Below are positions 21,644 through 37,633 of a stretch of DNA of 64,000 nucleotides, piece after piece (position 1 is the first letter of the stretch; each line of letters starts with the position of its first letter). The translations under genes and the position numbers were made by a program. Origin of the DNA: an uncultured delta proteobacterium (GTDB lineage Bacteria > Desulfobacterota > Desulfovibrionia > Desulfovibrionales > Desulfovibrionaceae); contig CAILNX010000026.1 in NCBI GenBank assembly GCA_903835685.1, positions 1-64,000 of the forward strand, read 5' to 3'. Under the pieces are notes generated by a model that was not told the origin of the DNA, ran no database searches, and worked only from the letters and a program-made list of their open reading frames with translations.

Positions 21644-23305
21644 CTAGGTCTCTTCCCCCATGGCCATGCGCAGAAGTTCCTCGATGTTCAGGACCAGGGC
21701 GTCGTAGTCGCCCATCATGCCGTAACCCAGGATGGGCAGGCCGTAGAGGCTGTGCACCGGCACGGTGAACCCGGTGATGACCACCTGCTGCTGGCGCAGG
21801 ACCTCGTCCACCAGGATGGCCGCCCGCCGGTCCCGCACCTTGGCCACCACGGCCTGGCACTGGTGCACCGGCCTGCCGCTTTCCTCCAGGTTCAGGAAGC
21901 GGTCCAGGCGGATGAGCCCGTCCATATGCTCCCGGACGCTCAAGACCTCCCGGCCGTCGGGCAGCATGGTCAGGTCCGAACTTAAGGGCTGGTAAATCTC
22001 CACGATGTCCCGGCTGGGCAGGATGAAGCGCTCGGAACCCACGGCGCAGACCAGACCCTCGGCAATGCCCTGGTCCACGGCCCGGGACAGGGGGATGGAC
22101 AGGGTGAAGGTGGTGCCGATCCCGGGCTCGGACTGGATGAGCACCTCGCCGTTCAAGCGCTCCTTGACCGCGGTGAGCACGGCGTCCATGCCCACGCCCC
22201 GGCCGGACACGTCGGTGATGGCCGCAGCCGTGGAAAAGCCCGAGCTCATGATGAACTGGAAAATTTCCTCCCGGGTGTACTCCCGGCCCTCTTCCCACAG
22301 GCCTTTTTCCCGGGCCTTGCGCTGGATGCTGTCGGCGTCCAGGCCCTTGCCGTCGTCCACCACCTTCAAGGTGGCGAATTCGCCCTTGCGTTGGGCCGCC
22401 AGCAGGATGACCCCGGTCTCTTCCTTGTCCGCGGCCAGCCGCTCCTCGGGCGACTCCAGCCCGTGGTCCACGGCATTGCGCAAGAGGTGGACCAGGGGCT
22501 CGTTGATGGCCTCCACCAGCTTCTTGTCCAGCTCCAGGTCCTCGCCAGCCACCTCCAGGCGGACCTTCTTGCCGGTTTTCTGGGCCAGGCTGGACACCAG
22601 GCGGTGCATGGGCGTGAAAATCTGGCGCAGGGGCACCAGACGGATGTGCTCCACCTCGGTCTTGATCTGGTCGATGATCTGGTCCATCTCCCGCAGGCCG
22701 GACACGGCCCGGCCCTGCACGGAATGGTCCTGGGTCACCACGGCGAAGGTGACCATGAGCTTGCCCACCAGTTCGATCAAGCTGTCCAGCTTTTCCGTGC
22801 TCACCCGGATGGAGGAGATGACCTCGGGCTTGGCCTGGCCAGGTGGCTCCGGGGCCGCGCGGCCCGTTTCCGGCTGGGGTGCGGGCTGGGCCTGGGTCTG
22901 GGCCAGGGTCTGGGGGCTGGGCGCTGGTTCAGGCTGGGCGGCGGGCTCTGGACCTGGGGCTGGGGCCGTGCGTGGCTGGCTCGGGCCGGAGGCCAGGGGC
23001 GTGGGCCTGGCCGGGGCCTGCTTGGGGACCGGGGCCTGCTCCTGGTCCAGGAGTCCGGCCAGGGTGTAGAGCAGCCGCTTGTGGGCCTCGCACAGGCCCA
23101 GGAAAGCGGAGATGATCTCCCGGGAAATGGGGGTGATGCCTTCGGCCAGCATGTCCAGAAGGGCGATGACCGGCGGCGAGGGCAGCTTGACGTGGGGCAG
23201 GCCCAGGGCGCTCAAGACCTCGGGCAGGGCTCCGCTGACCCCGCTTTCCAGGTCCAGGACGATTTTTTCGATGTGCTCGATGCAGTCGGAGATATTGCTT
23301 TTCAT
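21644..23305 (-). CDS. CheA-like histidine kinase lacking a usable HPt domain
   Basis: About 553 residues. Residues 1-90 are helical and resemble a P1 region but contain no H-x-x-K-G phosphorylation site. A Pro/Ala/Gln linker (about 95-155) follows, then the P3 dimerisation helices (STEKLDSLIELVGKLM), the P4 ATPase (LVHLLRNAVDHGLE, DDGKGLD, SGRGVGMD) and a P5 CheW-like domain to the end. It should therefore phosphorylate an HPt domain in trans, and the next upstream gene encodes one. The start is uncertain: 23305 is the ATG nearest the conserved part, with 23332 and 23362 possible. Confidence 0.88.
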   Translation of the reverse strand: MKSNISDCIEHIEKIVLDLESGVSGALPEVLSALGLPHVKLPSPPVIALLDMLAEGITPISREIISAFLGLCEAHKRLLYTLAGLLDQEQAPVPKQAPARPTPLASGPSQPRTAPAPGPEPAAQPEPAPSPQTLAQTQAQPAPQPETGRAAPEPPGQAKPEVISSIRVSTEKLDSLIELVGKLMVTFAVVTQDHSVQGRAVSGLREMDQIIDQIKTEVEHIRLVPLRQIFTPMHRLVSSLAQKTGKKVRLEVAGEDLELDKKLVEAINEPLVHLLRNAVDHGLESPEERLAADKEETGVILLAAQRKGEFATLKVVDDGKGLDADSIQRKAREKGLWEEGREYTREEIFQFIMSSGFSTAAAITDVSGRGVGMDAVLTAVKERLNGEVLIQSEPGIGTTFTLSIPLSRAVDQGIAEGLVCAVGSERFILPSRDIVEIYQPLSSDLTMLPDGREVLSVREHMDGLIRLDRFLNLEESGRPVHQCQAVVAKVRDRRAAILVDEVLRQQQVVITGFTVPVHSLYGLPILGYGMMGDYDALVLNIEELLRMAMGEET

Positions 23306-23390
23306 GGCTGTCGCCAGGACCTGGGGCAGCATCGGCCCGGCCCTGGGACGCGGCCGGAGCAAGAGGCAGGGGGCGTAAGTCTGGACACGG

Positions 23391-24134
23391 TCATGGGCTT
23401 TCCGTGCGGCTGGCCAGAAAGGCCGATTCGCTGGGCCACTGGGTCAGATAGCGGTCAAAGCCCCAGGTGTGGAACACCCCCCGGCACTCGTGGTCCAGTC
23501 CGGTCACGGCCAGGCAGAGGATGTCCGCCAGGGGCAGGATGTCCTCCCACAGGGCCGAACCGGCGCTGACCACCCCGGAAAAATCAAGCAGGACCGCGGC
23601 GCCCGGCGGGGTGGCGGCCAGGACCTCGATCACGGCCTGACGCTGGGCGGCCAGATGGAGCCGTAAGGCGCGCAGGCGGATGACGCGCAGGCCCTTGTGG
23701 TCCAACACCTCCACGCTCTGGTCCTGGGACATGTCCAGCTTGGGCGGCTTTTTCTGGGCCTCGTGCAGGGCGGCGCGGGTCGACTCGGTTTCCGACTCCA
23801 GGGGCTGGCCGGTCTGTTTGATCTGGTCGATGACGTTGAACACCGAGGTCACGGCCTGGGCGGCCACGGCGCAGTTGTCCGGGGTGTCGGCCACCTCGCC
23901 GCTCTGGAGCTTTTTCAGGAAGCTCTCCACCTCGTGGGTGAAGAGCGAGGCGGGTTCGAATCCGGGAATGAACCCGGTCACCCCTTTTATGGTGTGCAGG
24001 GGCCGGGAGAGGGTCTCGACGGCTTCGCCGGTTCGGCCCTGATAGAGCTGGGCCAGGCCTTCCATGACCTGCGGGTAGTATTTGTCGTTGACCTCGGACA
24101 AAAATTCGTCCAGCAGGCCGTCGTTCTCGCTCAT
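23391..24134 (-). CDS. HPt domain fused to a STAS-like domain
   Basis: 247 residues. Residues 1-115 form an HPt four-helix bundle with the acceptor His47 in SRPLHTIKGVTGFI. Residues about 145-245 resemble a STAS domain (LRLHLAAQRQAVIEVLAA, VLLDFSGVVSAGSALWEDIL), the fold of anti-sigma-factor antagonists; it has Ser-Ala-Gly-Ser at the usual phospho-serine position. It starts two bases after the CheY-like stop and ends 86 bases before the CheA-like start. It most likely supplies the P1 function missing from the kinase and couples it to a STAS output. Confidence 0.82.
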   Translation of the reverse strand: MSENDGLLDEFLSEVNDKYYPQVMEGLAQLYQGRTGEAVETLSRPLHTIKGVTGFIPGFEPASLFTHEVESFLKKLQSGEVADTPDNCAVAAQAVTSVFNVIDQIKQTGQPLESETESTRAALHEAQKKPPKLDMSQDQSVEVLDHKGLRVIRLRALRLHLAAQRQAVIEVLAATPPGAAVLLDFSGVVSAGSALWEDILPLADILCLAVTGLDHECRGVFHTWGFDRYLTQWPSESAFLASRTESP

Positions 24135-24136
24135 GG

Positions 24137-24529
24137 CTATTCTCTTACCAGCCCGAGTTTCTGCAGTTCGGCGAAAAGTTTGGTCCGCTCGATGGGCTTG
24201 ATCAGATAGCCCGAGGCCTCGCCGTCGTGAAAGGACTTGATCACGGTCTTGGGGTCGCTCAAGGCCGTGGTCATGAGCACCTTCACCGGTTCGAGTCCGC
24301 CCTGCCGTTCCAGGGCGCGGATGGAGGTCAGGGCCTCCAGCCCGTCCACCACGGGCATCATGATGTCCATGAGCACCAGGGTATAGGGGCGGCCCAGGTC
24401 ATGGGCCAAGGTGAAGGCCTGCACGGCTTCCTGGCCGTTGACCGCCAGGTCCACCTCGAACAGGGGGGCCAGGAGACGCTTGAGGATCTCCCGGCTGGTG
24501 AATTCGTCTTCGACGACCAAGGCCTTCAT
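24137..24529 (-). CDS. CheY-like receiver protein
   Basis: 130 residues, one receiver domain: VVEDEFTSRE acidic pair, LVLMDIMMPVVDG with the phospho-acceptor Asp, MTTALSD and the conserved Lys in YLIKPIERT. First gene of the three-gene module CheY / HPt-STAS / CheA-like, with only two bases between it and the HPt gene. Probable acceptor of phosphate from the HPt protein. Confidence 0.9.
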   Translation of the reverse strand: MKALVVEDEFTSREILKRLLAPLFEVDLAVNGQEAVQAFTLAHDLGRPYTLVLMDIMMPVVDGLEALTSIRALERQGGLEPVKVLMTTALSDPKTVIKSFHDGEASGYLIKPIERTKLFAELQKLGLVRE

Positions 24530-33668: not shown

Positions 33669-34073
33669 TCAGGGCAGGACCTTGAGCAGGGCCTTGATGA
33701 GCTTTTTTTCGTCCACGGGCTTGATGAGCACGTCGGTGACGCCGAGCTTGATGGAGGAGACCACCATGTCTTTTTCCGCCTCGGCGGACATCATGATGAA
33801 GGGCAGGTCTTTGCCCTTTTCGCTTTCCCGCACCAGTTGAAGCAATTCCAGGCCCGAGCGTTTGGGCATCTTCCAGTCCGAGATCACCAGGCCGATGGCC
33901 TCGGTGGAGGCGATGGACCAGGCCGCCTCGCCGTCGGCGGCCTCGAGGATGTTGGTGGCCCCCATGAGCTCCAGGATCTTCCGGGCCAGGGTGCGCACAA
34001 ACGGCGAGTCGTCCACCAGGAGGATGGTCATTCCTCCGAGGTAATTCTTCAGATCTTCCAGGGTTCGGGCCAT
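33669..34073 (-). CDS. CheY-like receiver protein, terminal member of a phosphorelay operon
   Basis: 134 residues. A short N-terminal helix is followed by a receiver: ILLVDDSPFVR, phospho-acceptor Asp in LVISDWKMPKRSG, MMSAEAEK and VLIKPVDEKK. It follows the HPt gene by 22 bases on the minus strand. ATG 34073 is the only start that avoids overlap with the HPt reading frame. Confidence 0.9.
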   Translation of the reverse strand: MARTLEDLKNYLGGMTILLVDDSPFVRTLARKILELMGATNILEAADGEAAWSIASTEAIGLVISDWKMPKRSGLELLQLVRESEKGKDLPFIMMSAEAEKDMVVSSIKLGVTDVLIKPVDEKKLIKALLKVLP

Positions 34074-34095
34074 GACCGCTGTGTCTCCCTCGGTT

Positions 34096-34416
34096 TCAGA
34101 ACTGGGCCAGGGCGGATTCGAGGCCTTCAACATTCACCCGGACCAGATCCAGGTCGCCGGTCTTGGCTCCAGCTTCGATAGCCTTGGCTAGTTCGGCCAA
34201 ATCGTCAAGCCCCATGTTCAGGAGATTGCCCTTGAGGGCATGGGCGGCCTCGGCCAGCGCCAGGAGGTCGGCGGCCTGAAGCAGGGCGGGAAAGTCCTTC
34301 AAGGCCTGGGCCACCACGCCCTGGCCCAGGGCCAGCAGTTCGGCCACGTCGCTGTCACCGAGCCCCACGGTTTCCTTCAGATGGGCGGTCACTTTCTCTT
34401 TCAGGGTCTGGGCCAT
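34096..34416 (-). CDS. Stand-alone HPt phosphotransfer protein
   Basis: 106 residues forming one helical bundle with the acceptor His59 in AEAAHALKGNLLNMG. It probably moves phosphate from the receiver domain of the hybrid kinase (next gene upstream) to the receiver protein (next gene downstream). AGGAAG lies upstream of ATG 34416. Longer open sequence upstream of this start lies in the intergenic region and is not protein-like. Confidence 0.87.
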   Translation of the reverse strand: MAQTLKEKVTAHLKETVGLGDSDVAELLALGQGVVAQALKDFPALLQAADLLALAEAAHALKGNLLNMGLDDLAELAKAIEAGAKTGDLDLVRVNVEGLESALAQF

Positions 34417-34466
34417 GGGGGAATTATTCTTCCTGTTTCGGGTTGGGGTTTCAGGGGCTTTCCAAA

Positions 34467-36380
34467 CTAGGCTTTCATGTATTTTTGCAGGAGGAAGGTC
34501 AAGGCCTCGGTCTTGAAGGGTTTGGACATGTATTCGTCCATGCCCGCGGCCCGGCAACGGTCTTCGTCCTCTTTCATGGCGTGGGCGGTCAGGGCCACGA
34601 TGGGGATGTGCACCCCGGCCTGGCGCAACCGGATGGTGGCCGTGAGTCCGTCCATGACCGGCATCTGCACGTCCATGAGCACGATGTCCGCCGAGCCCGG
34701 GTCGGCCGTGAGCCGGTCCACGGCCTCCTGGCCGTTGGCCACCATGACCACGTTCTTGACCCCCAGGTTGGCCAGGATCTTGTTCAGGAGGAGCTGGTTG
34801 AAGGTGTTGTCCTCGGCGGCCAGCACGCGCAGGGAGGAGAAATCCGCCCGGGTCCGGGGTGGGGCCTGGGTCTGGTCAGAGGGCCGGTCTTCGGGCAGGG
34901 GCTCGGGCAGGGCCAGGGTCAGGGTCAGGGAGAAAACGCTGCCCTGCCCCGGGGTGCTGCTCACCTCGATGCGCTCTCCGCCCATGAGCCGGGTCAGGTT
35001 GCTGGAAATGGTCAGGCCCAGGCCCGTGCCCCCGAAGCGCCGGGTCACGGTGCTGTCGGCCTGGTCAAAGGCCTGGAAGATTTTCTCCAGCTTGTCCGCC
35101 GGGATGCCGATGCCTGTGTCTTCCACCCCGAAGCGGATGCGGATCTTCCCGTCCTCTTGTCCAGGGGCCAGGACCTGGGCTTTCAAGGTGACCGCGCCCT
35201 GGCTGGTGAATTTCACGGCATTGCCCATGAGGTTCAGGAGAATCTGGCGCAGGCGCACGGGGTCCACCAGAACCTGGGTCGGCAGACCGGGGTCCACGTC
35301 CATGGCCAGGCTCAGGCCCTTGTCCCGGGCGGTCACGGCCAGGGCCTCCAGCACTTCGTTCAGCAGGCGGCCGAGGTCCGTGCGCTCGGGGGTGATCTCC
35401 AGGCGTCCGGCCTCGATCTTGGAGAAGTCCAGGATGTCGTTGATGATGGCCAGCAGGTTCTCGGCCGAGACCAGGATGGCCTGGACCATCTCCTGGTTCT
35501 CGGCGGTCAGCCCGGCTACGGCCAGCAGGCGGCTCATGCCCAGGATGGCGTTCATGGGTGTACGGATCTCGTGGCTCATGTTGGCCAGGAATTCGCTCTT
35601 GGCCCGGCTGGCTGCCTCGGCCGCCTCCTTGGCGGTCTGAAGCTCCTCGTTGATGCGCCGCCGCTCCTTGATACCCTCGGCCAGGCGGGAGTTGGCCTCG
35701 GACAACTCGCGGGTGCGCTCGGCCACCCGTTCCTCCAGATGGTCCCGGTGCCTTTGCAACTCCTGCTCCGAAAGGGCCAGGCGCTCCACCTTGTCCAGGA
35801 GGTCCTGGTTCATGTCCGACACAAGCTGGTACAGGCGCAGATGCTCCATGGCGTTGGCGCTGCTCTGCATGAGGATGGACAAGAGGGCCAGGGAGGAGTC
35901 CGGGATTTCCTGGACCTCTGCGGCCAGGATGCCCAGGAACACCCCGATGTCCTTGGTGGCCGTGGACAGGGCGTGGATGATGAGCTGTTGGCCCGGGGCC
36001 TGGGCCGGAACCACCACGGCCTTTTTCCGGGCCACGATCCAGGCCAGGGTCCCGCTCTCCACCAGGGCGTCCAGTTCCTGCTCCATGTCCGTAAAGCGGG
36101 TCATGGGCTGGCACATGGCCTGGGACAGGTCCATGGTCTCTTCGTCGAAAAGGTGGATGGAGGAGGCGGACAGGGCCACGATCTGGCTCACCCGGGCCCC
36201 GATTTCCTCCAGGATGGGATCAAGGGAGACCAGGGCGTCGCTCTTGGCCTGGAAATTTCCCAGGGAGGCGGCCAGGTCCAGGGCGTCCAGGGTGAAGCGG
36301 TTGACCTCCTCCAGGTAGGCCAGCCGACGTTCCAGGCCCTGGACGGAGGAGGGATCAGCGGCGCGTTTTTTGGCGCTCAT
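34467..36380 (-). CDS. Hybrid sensor histidine kinase (GAF-like, HisKA, HATPase, receiver)
   Basis: 637 residues, no membrane segment. Residues about 30-185 resemble a GAF domain, followed by a coiled coil (190-260), HisKA with [14 protein letters not shown] (His270), HATPase_c ([27 protein letters not shown]) and a C-terminal receiver with [12 protein letters not shown]. The start ATG at 36380 overlaps the HDOD stop by 4 nt (ATGA). Receiver plus the separate HPt and receiver genes downstream make a complete His-Asp-His-Asp relay. Confidence 0.92.
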
Positions 36381-37633
36381 GCCGTAAAGGCCCTCATGAT
36401 GTCCTCCACCTGCTGGTCCACCTGGGGGACCAGGGCCGAGAGGACGTTTTTGGACAGGCCGAGCAGGTCCCAGGCCTCGGGAACGAGCGGGGGCACCAGG
36501 CGGGTGCCGCTGGACCCGATGGCCAGGGTGTGGGCCACCACGTCGGCCACGTGCAGAATGGCCGGCTCCAGCGGGTTGCGCGAGGACAGGGGGTTGTGGT
36601 GGCCCTGGATGGCGTTCTCCAAGGTCACCGGGAATTTCCATTCCTTGAGCAGGGCCCCGGCCAGTTTGGCGTGGTTGAAGCCCCAGACCTCGGCCTCGGC
36701 CTCGGTCACGGTGATATTTTTTTCCGCGGCTTTCACCACGGCCTCCCGGGCCAGGGCCGGAAAATTGCGGAACATGACCAGTCGGCCGATATCGTGCAGC
36801 ATCCCGGCCACGAAGAAGCGCTCCTCGCCCGGATTGCGCATGCGTCCGGCCAAAAGCCGGGCCAGGATGCCGCAGGCCACGCTGTGCCGCCAGAAGGAGG
36901 CCATGTCCATGATCTCGGCCGGGATGTCCTTGAAGGCGCTGATGACCGAGACGCCCAGGGCCAGATTGGTGAGCTGGTTGGTGCCGGTGATGGTCACGGC
37001 CCGGGACAGGGTGTCCACCTTGTTGGGAAAGCCGTAGAAGGAGCTGTTCACCAGCCTGAGCAGCTTGGCCGAAAGGCTGGTGTCCTTGCCGATAATGTCG
37101 GCCACGAACGAGGCTGAACTGTTGGGATTCTTCAAGGCCTCGATGATCTGGTGGAAGATGTCCGGCAGGGAGGCCAGGTCGTTCTTGCCCTGGATGATGG
37201 AGGCCAGGGTGGGCGGTTTGGGCAGGACCGCGCCCTCGTCCCGGGCCGGCACATTGATGCGGGTGCGGGCGAAGTCCGCCACCACCTTGTCCACGCCCTC
37301 GGCCTGGAGCTTTGCGGCGGTGCGCAACACGGAAATCTTCATGAGTTCGCGCACGGCCTCGTGGTCCCGGTTGGCCAGGGCGAACTGTCGGGAGATGAGC
37401 ACCTTGGCCGCCTGCAACACCCGGGGCTCCAGGCGTTTCAGCTTTTCCGCCGTGGCTTGCTCGGCCGTGGCCCCTTCCACGTCGGCCTCGGTCACCCCCC
37501 AGATCTTGCACACCCGGAGAATCTTCTCCGTGACCTCCTGGCCCTTGCCCAGAATCAACCGGCCCTGGGGCGAGTTCAAGTCCGCCGACAGGGTCATGCC
37601 TGGTTGGAGGTCCTGCAAGGGAAGAAGGCCCAT
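36377..37633 (-). CDS. HDOD-domain signalling protein
   Basis: 418 residues. An N-terminal DUF3391-like part (LLPLQDLQPGMTLSADL) of about 60 residues is followed by a linker and an HDOD domain (about 145-350) with SAKLLRLVNSSFYG, ITGTNQLTNLALG and a remaining HD-like FVAGMLHDIGRLVMF. HDOD proteins usually lack phosphodiesterase activity and act as signalling scaffolds. First gene of the HDOD / hybrid kinase / HPt / receiver operon, with ATGA coupling to the kinase. Confidence 0.9.
   Translation of the reverse strand: MGLLPLQDLQPGMTLSADLNSPQGRLILGKGQEVTEKILRVCKIWGVTEADVEGATAEQATAEKLKRLEPRVLQAAKVLISRQFALANRDHEAVRELMKISVLRTAAKLQAEGVDKVVADFARTRINVPARDEGAVLPKPPTLASIIQGKNDLASLPDIFHQIIEALKNPNSSASFVADIIGKDTSLSAKLLRLVNSSFYGFPNKVDTLSRAVTITGTNQLTNLALGVSVISAFKDIPAEIMDMASFWRHSVACGILARLLAGRMRNPGEERFFVAGMLHDIGRLVMFRNFPALAREAVVKAAEKNITVTEAEAEVWGFNHAKLAGALLKEWKFPVTLENAIQGHHNPLSSRNPLEPAILHVADVVAHTLAIGSSGTRLVPPLVPEAWDLLGLSKNVLSALVPQVDQQVEDIMRAFTA

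Follow-up and report, generated by a model that had tools for sequence, protein, structure and literature searches.

How could a CheA-type histidine kinase signal once its own P1 domain has lost the phosphorylatable histidine? The question is raised by three genes in a stretch of 64,000 nucleotides from an uncultured delta proteobacterium (GenBank assembly GCA_903835685.1, contig CAILNX010000026.1, positions 1 to 64,000 of the forward strand; hereafter the window). The genes lie on the minus strand in the order CheY, HPt-STAS protein, CheA-like kinase. They probably constitute a split CheA, in which the kinase would phosphorylate the histidine phosphotransfer (HPt) domain of its neighbour in trans for transfer to CheY, and the STAS domain would act as a docking or partner-switch module. 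The genes and their domains, in window coordinates, are:

24137 to 24529, minus strand: CheY-like single-domain response regulator (Response_reg match in Pfam, E 7.6e-18)
23391 to 24134, minus strand: HPt-STAS fusion protein of 247 residues (Pfam, structural model, relatives)
23754 to 24134, minus strand: its CheA-type, P1-like HPt domain, residues 1-127, five helices (Hpt match, model)
23400 to 23720, minus strand: its STAS domain, residues 139-245 (Pfam in relatives, structure matches, alignments)
21644 to 23305, minus strand: CheA-like kinase of 553 residues, from ATG 23305 (HATPase_c E 4.5e-14, CheW E 2.3e-14)
23054 to 23305, minus strand: putative degenerate P1 (pseudo-P1) of the kinase, residues 1-84, phospho-histidine lost (no Hpt match; profile matches on other P1s)
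22811 to 23047, minus strand: Pro/Ala-rich linker of low model confidence (predicted local distance difference test, pLDDT, below 50 at residues 87-121 and 123-165)
22640 to 22807, minus strand: P3 dimerisation helices, residues 167-222 (H-kinase_dim; model helices 170-192 and 197-222)
22085 to 22639, minus strand: P4, the ATP-binding kinase domain (HATPase_c; CheA P4 structures at Z ~25)
21662 to 22072, minus strand: P5, a CheW-like domain (CheW match)

The kinase core is that of a CheA, a class II histidine kinase, with P3, P4 and P5 recognised by Pfam and by structure matches. HATPase_c and CheW lie above the Pfam cut-off; H-kinase_dim scores 22.9 bits against a cut-off of 23, and 25.1 bits when searched genome-wide. 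The model resembles structures of CheA P3-P5 (for example 3ja6_C, Z 26.9) in a comparison that barely covers residues 1-168. Within the N-box and G-box, H273, N277, D280, H281, G282, D317, G319, G321, G368, G370, G372 and G397 are invariant in all 76 rows that have a letter there. The gene most likely starts at ATG 23305 and not at TTG 23362, because similarity to most orthologues begins at the former (residue 20 of the TTG form).

The same protein carries no phosphorylatable P1 histidine (HxxKG). Pfam finds no Hpt domain at the N-terminus in any of 36 members (the window and 35 relatives), and the motif H..[KR]G does not occur in the first 95 residues of 77 kinase rows, two of which are fragments. 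A first-pass annotation, made from the letters of this DNA, had described a CheA-like protein with P3 to P5 and no phosphorylatable P1 histidine, and is borne out on these points, a complete P1 having been sought without success. The host genome holds seven CheA-like proteins by H-kinase_dim matches, the window kinase included, and for each of the other six an open frame of equal length on its contig carries an Hpt match; as all six have one, the loss of P1 is specific to the window kinase. The annotation had called the N-terminus simply helical, and here a degenerate P1 seems the better description. Pfam and PDB sequence searches with this region returned no convincing match. In 395 genomes of the phylum, a profile of this region gave six matches outside the family (E 2e-4 to 8e-4), every one of which falls within or overlaps the Hpt domain of another CheA-type protein. 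These proteins also carry H-kinase_dim (6/6), HATPase_c (5/6) and CheW (4/6), the two without a CheW match being cut by the locus end or ending earlier. In three of the alignments (L173, L174 and L177) the surroundings of the phospho-histidine form an insertion relative to this profile, and in the remaining three the match starts at or after the phospho-histidine. The region is modelled as four short helices (2-18, 24-34, 44-54 and 62-82), and its simplest reading is a P1 that has presumably lost its phospho-histidine segment.

A candidate phosphorylatable histidine is found next door. As the annotation had proposed, the neighbouring gene encodes an HPt domain with His47, fused to a STAS-like domain. 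The Hpt match covers residues 9-96 (E 1.5e-7), and His47 (codon 23994-23996) lies in PLHTIKG. The model of the whole protein is confident (mean pLDDT 91), with HPt helices at 3-31, 35-55, 60-78, 85-108 and 113-127. Residues 1-131 best resemble CheA P1 structures, fifth helix included (1i5n_B, Z 16.0, root-mean-square deviation (rmsd) 2.4 over 125 residues); the P1 of Rhodobacter sphaeroides CheA3 (3kyj_A) gives Z 14.6, rmsd 2.5 over 126 residues. Because helical bundles can reach Z 13 by chance, the assignment also draws on the sequence matches. R44, P45, H47, T48, I49, K50, G51, H67 and E70 are invariant in all 77 HPt-STAS rows, and H, K, H and E at positions 47, 50, 67 and 70 are what we take to be the active-site network of CheA P1. 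Pfam matches no CheW domain (P5) in this protein.

The gene of the candidate acceptor lies two bases away, with 24137 against 24134, just as first annotated. Its acidic pocket, phospho-aspartate, threonine or serine, and lysine are those of a CheY: D8, D55, T/S88 and K111 are kept in 74 of 74 orthologues, the window copy having T88 and its phospho-acceptor D55 at codon 24365-24367.

The three genes recur among relatives. Of 297 genomes in the order, 77 carry the P1-less CheA N-terminus; they belong to 12 of the order's 55 genera (Pseudodesulfovibrio is among the named carriers), and in all 77 the kinase gene is adjoined by the HPt-STAS gene (one of them, at L138, truncated). A CheY scoring above 150 bits adjoins the pair in 74, so the survey of relatives that the annotation had called for returns all three genes in 74 genomes. 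An arrangement shared by 77 of the 297 genomes is beyond chance. Spacing is tight: among 37 rows measured, CheY lies 2-34 bp from HPt-STAS in 35, and HPt-STAS lies -17 to 18 bp from CheA in 36, with 85 bp in the window. Across the 395 genomes of the phylum, a full-length HPt-STAS profile has full-length matches in only three genomes, all of the same family; its matches outside the family are mostly long open frames, often of 600-800 codons, and mostly cover the HPt part only. Within the genomes searched, the module thus looks confined to this order.

Fission of an ordinary CheA by a frameshift or an assembly error would also place an HPt gene close before a kinase core, in the order of a complete CheA. 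However, 77 genomes from 12 genera have the same separate genes, which overlap or lie a short distance apart; between the two parts comes a STAS domain, and the CheA possesses a pseudo-P1 and a conserved start of its own. We reject such an artefact, its probability being next to nil. Individual loci do look broken: the HPt-STAS gene at L138:4182-4466 is apparently incomplete (94 residues), and the CheA genes of L152 and L168 appear split between frames, which may reflect sequence errors or decay. Alternatively, the CheA-like protein might be an inactive scaffold and the HPt be charged by another kinase, be it a hybrid kinase or a complete CheA, of which there are six. A degenerate P1 would fit such a role, and the genome has 29 HPt matches and, besides this one, six CheA-like proteins; however, conservation of the twelve kinase-core residues in every row and the universal pairing with HPt-STAS make this improbable.

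What the STAS domain adds depends first on whether it is one. Among 37 family members, 25 match PF01740 and 15 match PF13466 (best E 8.7e-7). In structure comparison, residues 135-247 of the model resemble STAS structures, those of SpoIIAA type included (Z ~12-15); the best match is 3t6o_B (Z 15.1, rmsd 1.8 over 106 residues). The stretch that the annotation had called STAS-like (residues 145-245), checked in this way, is supported by predicted fold and by the profiles of relatives, and we rejected the view that the domain is unsupported. It varies more than the HPt half (mean top-residue frequency 0.49 vs 0.71). Yet S193 (codon 23556-23558) ranks third in conservation among the 102 STAS columns, with Ser in 72 of 77 members and Thr in 2; the rows lacking both are the sister sequences L059 and L065 and the broken gene L138. 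S193 aligns with the serine that follows D or G in the DS/GS motif of anti-anti-sigma factors, and 63 of the 77 members have Gly directly before it. This serine presumably corresponds to the phosphorylated serine of SpoIIAA and RsfB, and judged by the alignment a phosphorylatable position appears to be retained.

Two uses of the domain can be set against each other. One takes STAS to be a docking or tethering module only, replacing P2 or the covalent link between P1 and CheA, with no partner-switch kinase involved; we put its chances somewhat short of even. It would explain how a P1 without a covalent tether is held, and a STAS protein that binds CheA has a precedent in CheS (PMC12654446). It also agrees with the surroundings of the window trio and of its clade, where no partner-switch kinase or phosphatase gene (RsbW or PP2C) was seen; HATPase_c_2 matches above the cut-off in the host genome, which has four stand-alone proteins of this kind, all lie on contigs other than that of the window. 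However, the Ser/Thr is kept in 74 of 77 members, and partner-switch genes stand at both loci of a sister clade. The other takes HPt-STAS to be a doubly phosphorylated hub, charged on His47 by the P1-less CheA and on Ser193 by an RsbW-type kinase. This is a tentative proposal, less likely than not. If true, a single protein would be both read and written by chemosensory signalling and by sigma-factor partner switching, making it a two-input gate between movement and transcription.

The sister clade emerged from a tree of P3-P5 cores from 23 module members and 12 other CheA-type cores, which separates the module from other CheAs (support 0.98). L066 and L169 group together (0.96) as sister to the CheY-bearing clade (1.00), within which L065 is nested. 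RsbW-type kinase and PP2C phosphatase genes are present at the loci of these two genomes. At L169 one strand carries, in order, a regulator, an HD protein, a SpoIIE phosphatase, a HATPase_c_2-STAS protein, HPt-STAS and CheA; at L066 the gene of an RsbW-like HATPase_c_2 protein precedes HPt-STAS and CheA, with a receiver-SpoIIE gene convergent on them. The two HATPase_c_2 proteins are 40% identical; the STAS match at L169 is weak (Pfam E 0.036), and its L066 counterpart has none. A search of the order's 297 genomes found full-length relatives of the HATPase_c_2-STAS protein in no others than G127, G030 and G131. In G131 (L218:8971-10218) neither HPt-STAS nor module CheA was found beside it, a histidine kinase standing there instead, and a transposase-like open reading frame (ORF) was noted nearby by eye. 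The host genome itself has a second HPt-STAS protein, of 404 residues (Hpt 7-99, STAS_2 324-394), in a full partner-switch set on contig C19 (L222:1021-4375), where receiver-SpoIIE, HATPase_c_2 and STAS genes precede it in a row; no CheA was seen beside this set in the 7 kb read.

The first-pass proposal of a split CheA with a separate HPt-STAS protein and CheY therefore stands as regards domains, conserved residues and co-occurrence; the tie to partner switching that it added is plausible and indirect, pointing to the retained Ser/Thr and the sister-clade genes, with none beside the window trio. In the split CheA that we favour, the kinase would dimerise through P3, bind ATP through P4 and be able to couple to receptors or CheW through P5. 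With the phospho-histidine gone from its own P1, it would phosphorylate His47 of HPt-STAS in trans, and the phosphoryl group would then move to Asp55 of the adjacent CheY. As P1 is no longer covalently linked to the kinase, a replacement tether would be needed, which STAS could supply; the carrier would become a regulated or tethered substrate whose HPt is docked to a partner. That partner may be the pseudo-P1 or a protein of the anti-sigma type, and the docking would depend on whether H47, and possibly also S193, is phosphorylated. Alternatively or additionally, STAS may pass the signal on to a partner switch, the part that HsbA plays downstream of HptB.

Several observations weigh against this scheme. 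Searched by itself, the window protein gives no STAS match in Pfam, even at E 10. When the profile of the CheA N-terminus was compared directly with that of the partner HPt, no match resulted (prob 0.4; a control against the STAS part, prob 0.5, gave none either), so the pseudo-P1 reading leans on the matches outside the family. No gene for a methyl-accepting chemotaxis protein or CheW was recognised by eye beside the trio among the ORFs of 15-33 kb. Finally, three of the 77 genomes (L065, L066 and L169) have no CheY next to the pair, and the phospho-acceptor may differ there.

Other neighbours were also recorded. At L065:3716-8194 an ORF of 1492 residues, resembling a hybrid sensor kinase by eye, lies upstream of HPt-STAS in the place of CheY. 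In 46 of 77 loci the CheA gene is followed downstream, on its own strand and often within ~600 bp, by a homologue of the CbiK-type cobalt chelatase (L032:7426-8235, E 1.2e-37), and in some loci ABC-transporter-like genes accompany it; none was seen at the window locus. A cobalamin or metal link is possible. In the window, positions 33669-37633 of the minus strand hold an apparent phosphorelay row of an HDOD-like protein, a hybrid histidine kinase, a small HPt protein and a response regulator (named by eye except Hpt).

Split CheAs are already known, and the HPt-STAS partner is the new part as far as the literature searched extends: among open-licence papers, where absence weighs little, neither an Hpt-STAS fusion nor an HPt-STAS partner of CheA was found, and a search there for CheAs without P1 returned no CheA paper. 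The three-gene set may connect two kinds of signalling that are mostly studied separately, and the STAS fusion is a concrete, testable candidate joint between chemosensory phosphorylation and partner switching. Being common in one order and simple in form, the module could serve as a second, tractable system in which to ask why a kinase would part with its phospho-domain. Split CheAs have been called rare (11 split vs 470 complete, a count cited in PMC3591291). The closest likeness is to CheA3/CheA4 of R. sphaeroides with CheY6, where a P1-less CheA of P3-P4-P5 build likewise has its P1 on another protein and works with a CheY; a kinase without P1 encoded with a separate HPt protein is equally what the window shows. 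CheA3 consists of P1, a long linker with CheY6 phosphatase activity, and P5 (PMC2829493, PMC3591291), whereas in the present module P1 has STAS as its fusion partner and no P5, and the kinase appears to retain a degenerate P1. Sinorhizobium and Agrobacterium CheS is similarly a STAS protein acting with CheA and CheY; that of S. meliloti binds CheA and alters CheA-CheY binding. However, CheS is a single-domain STAS protein (PMC12654446), whereas here STAS is fused to the putative HPt substrate of a P1-less CheA. The Pseudomonas HptB-HsbR-HsbA system shares an HPt phosphorelay leading into an anti-anti-sigma partner switch, but its donors are hybrid sensor kinases and not CheA (PMC5085249, PMC6482189). 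SpoIIAA and RsbV share the STAS fold and the serine position; in the present family that domain is fused to a CheA-P1-type HPt, and Gly precedes the serine in most members.
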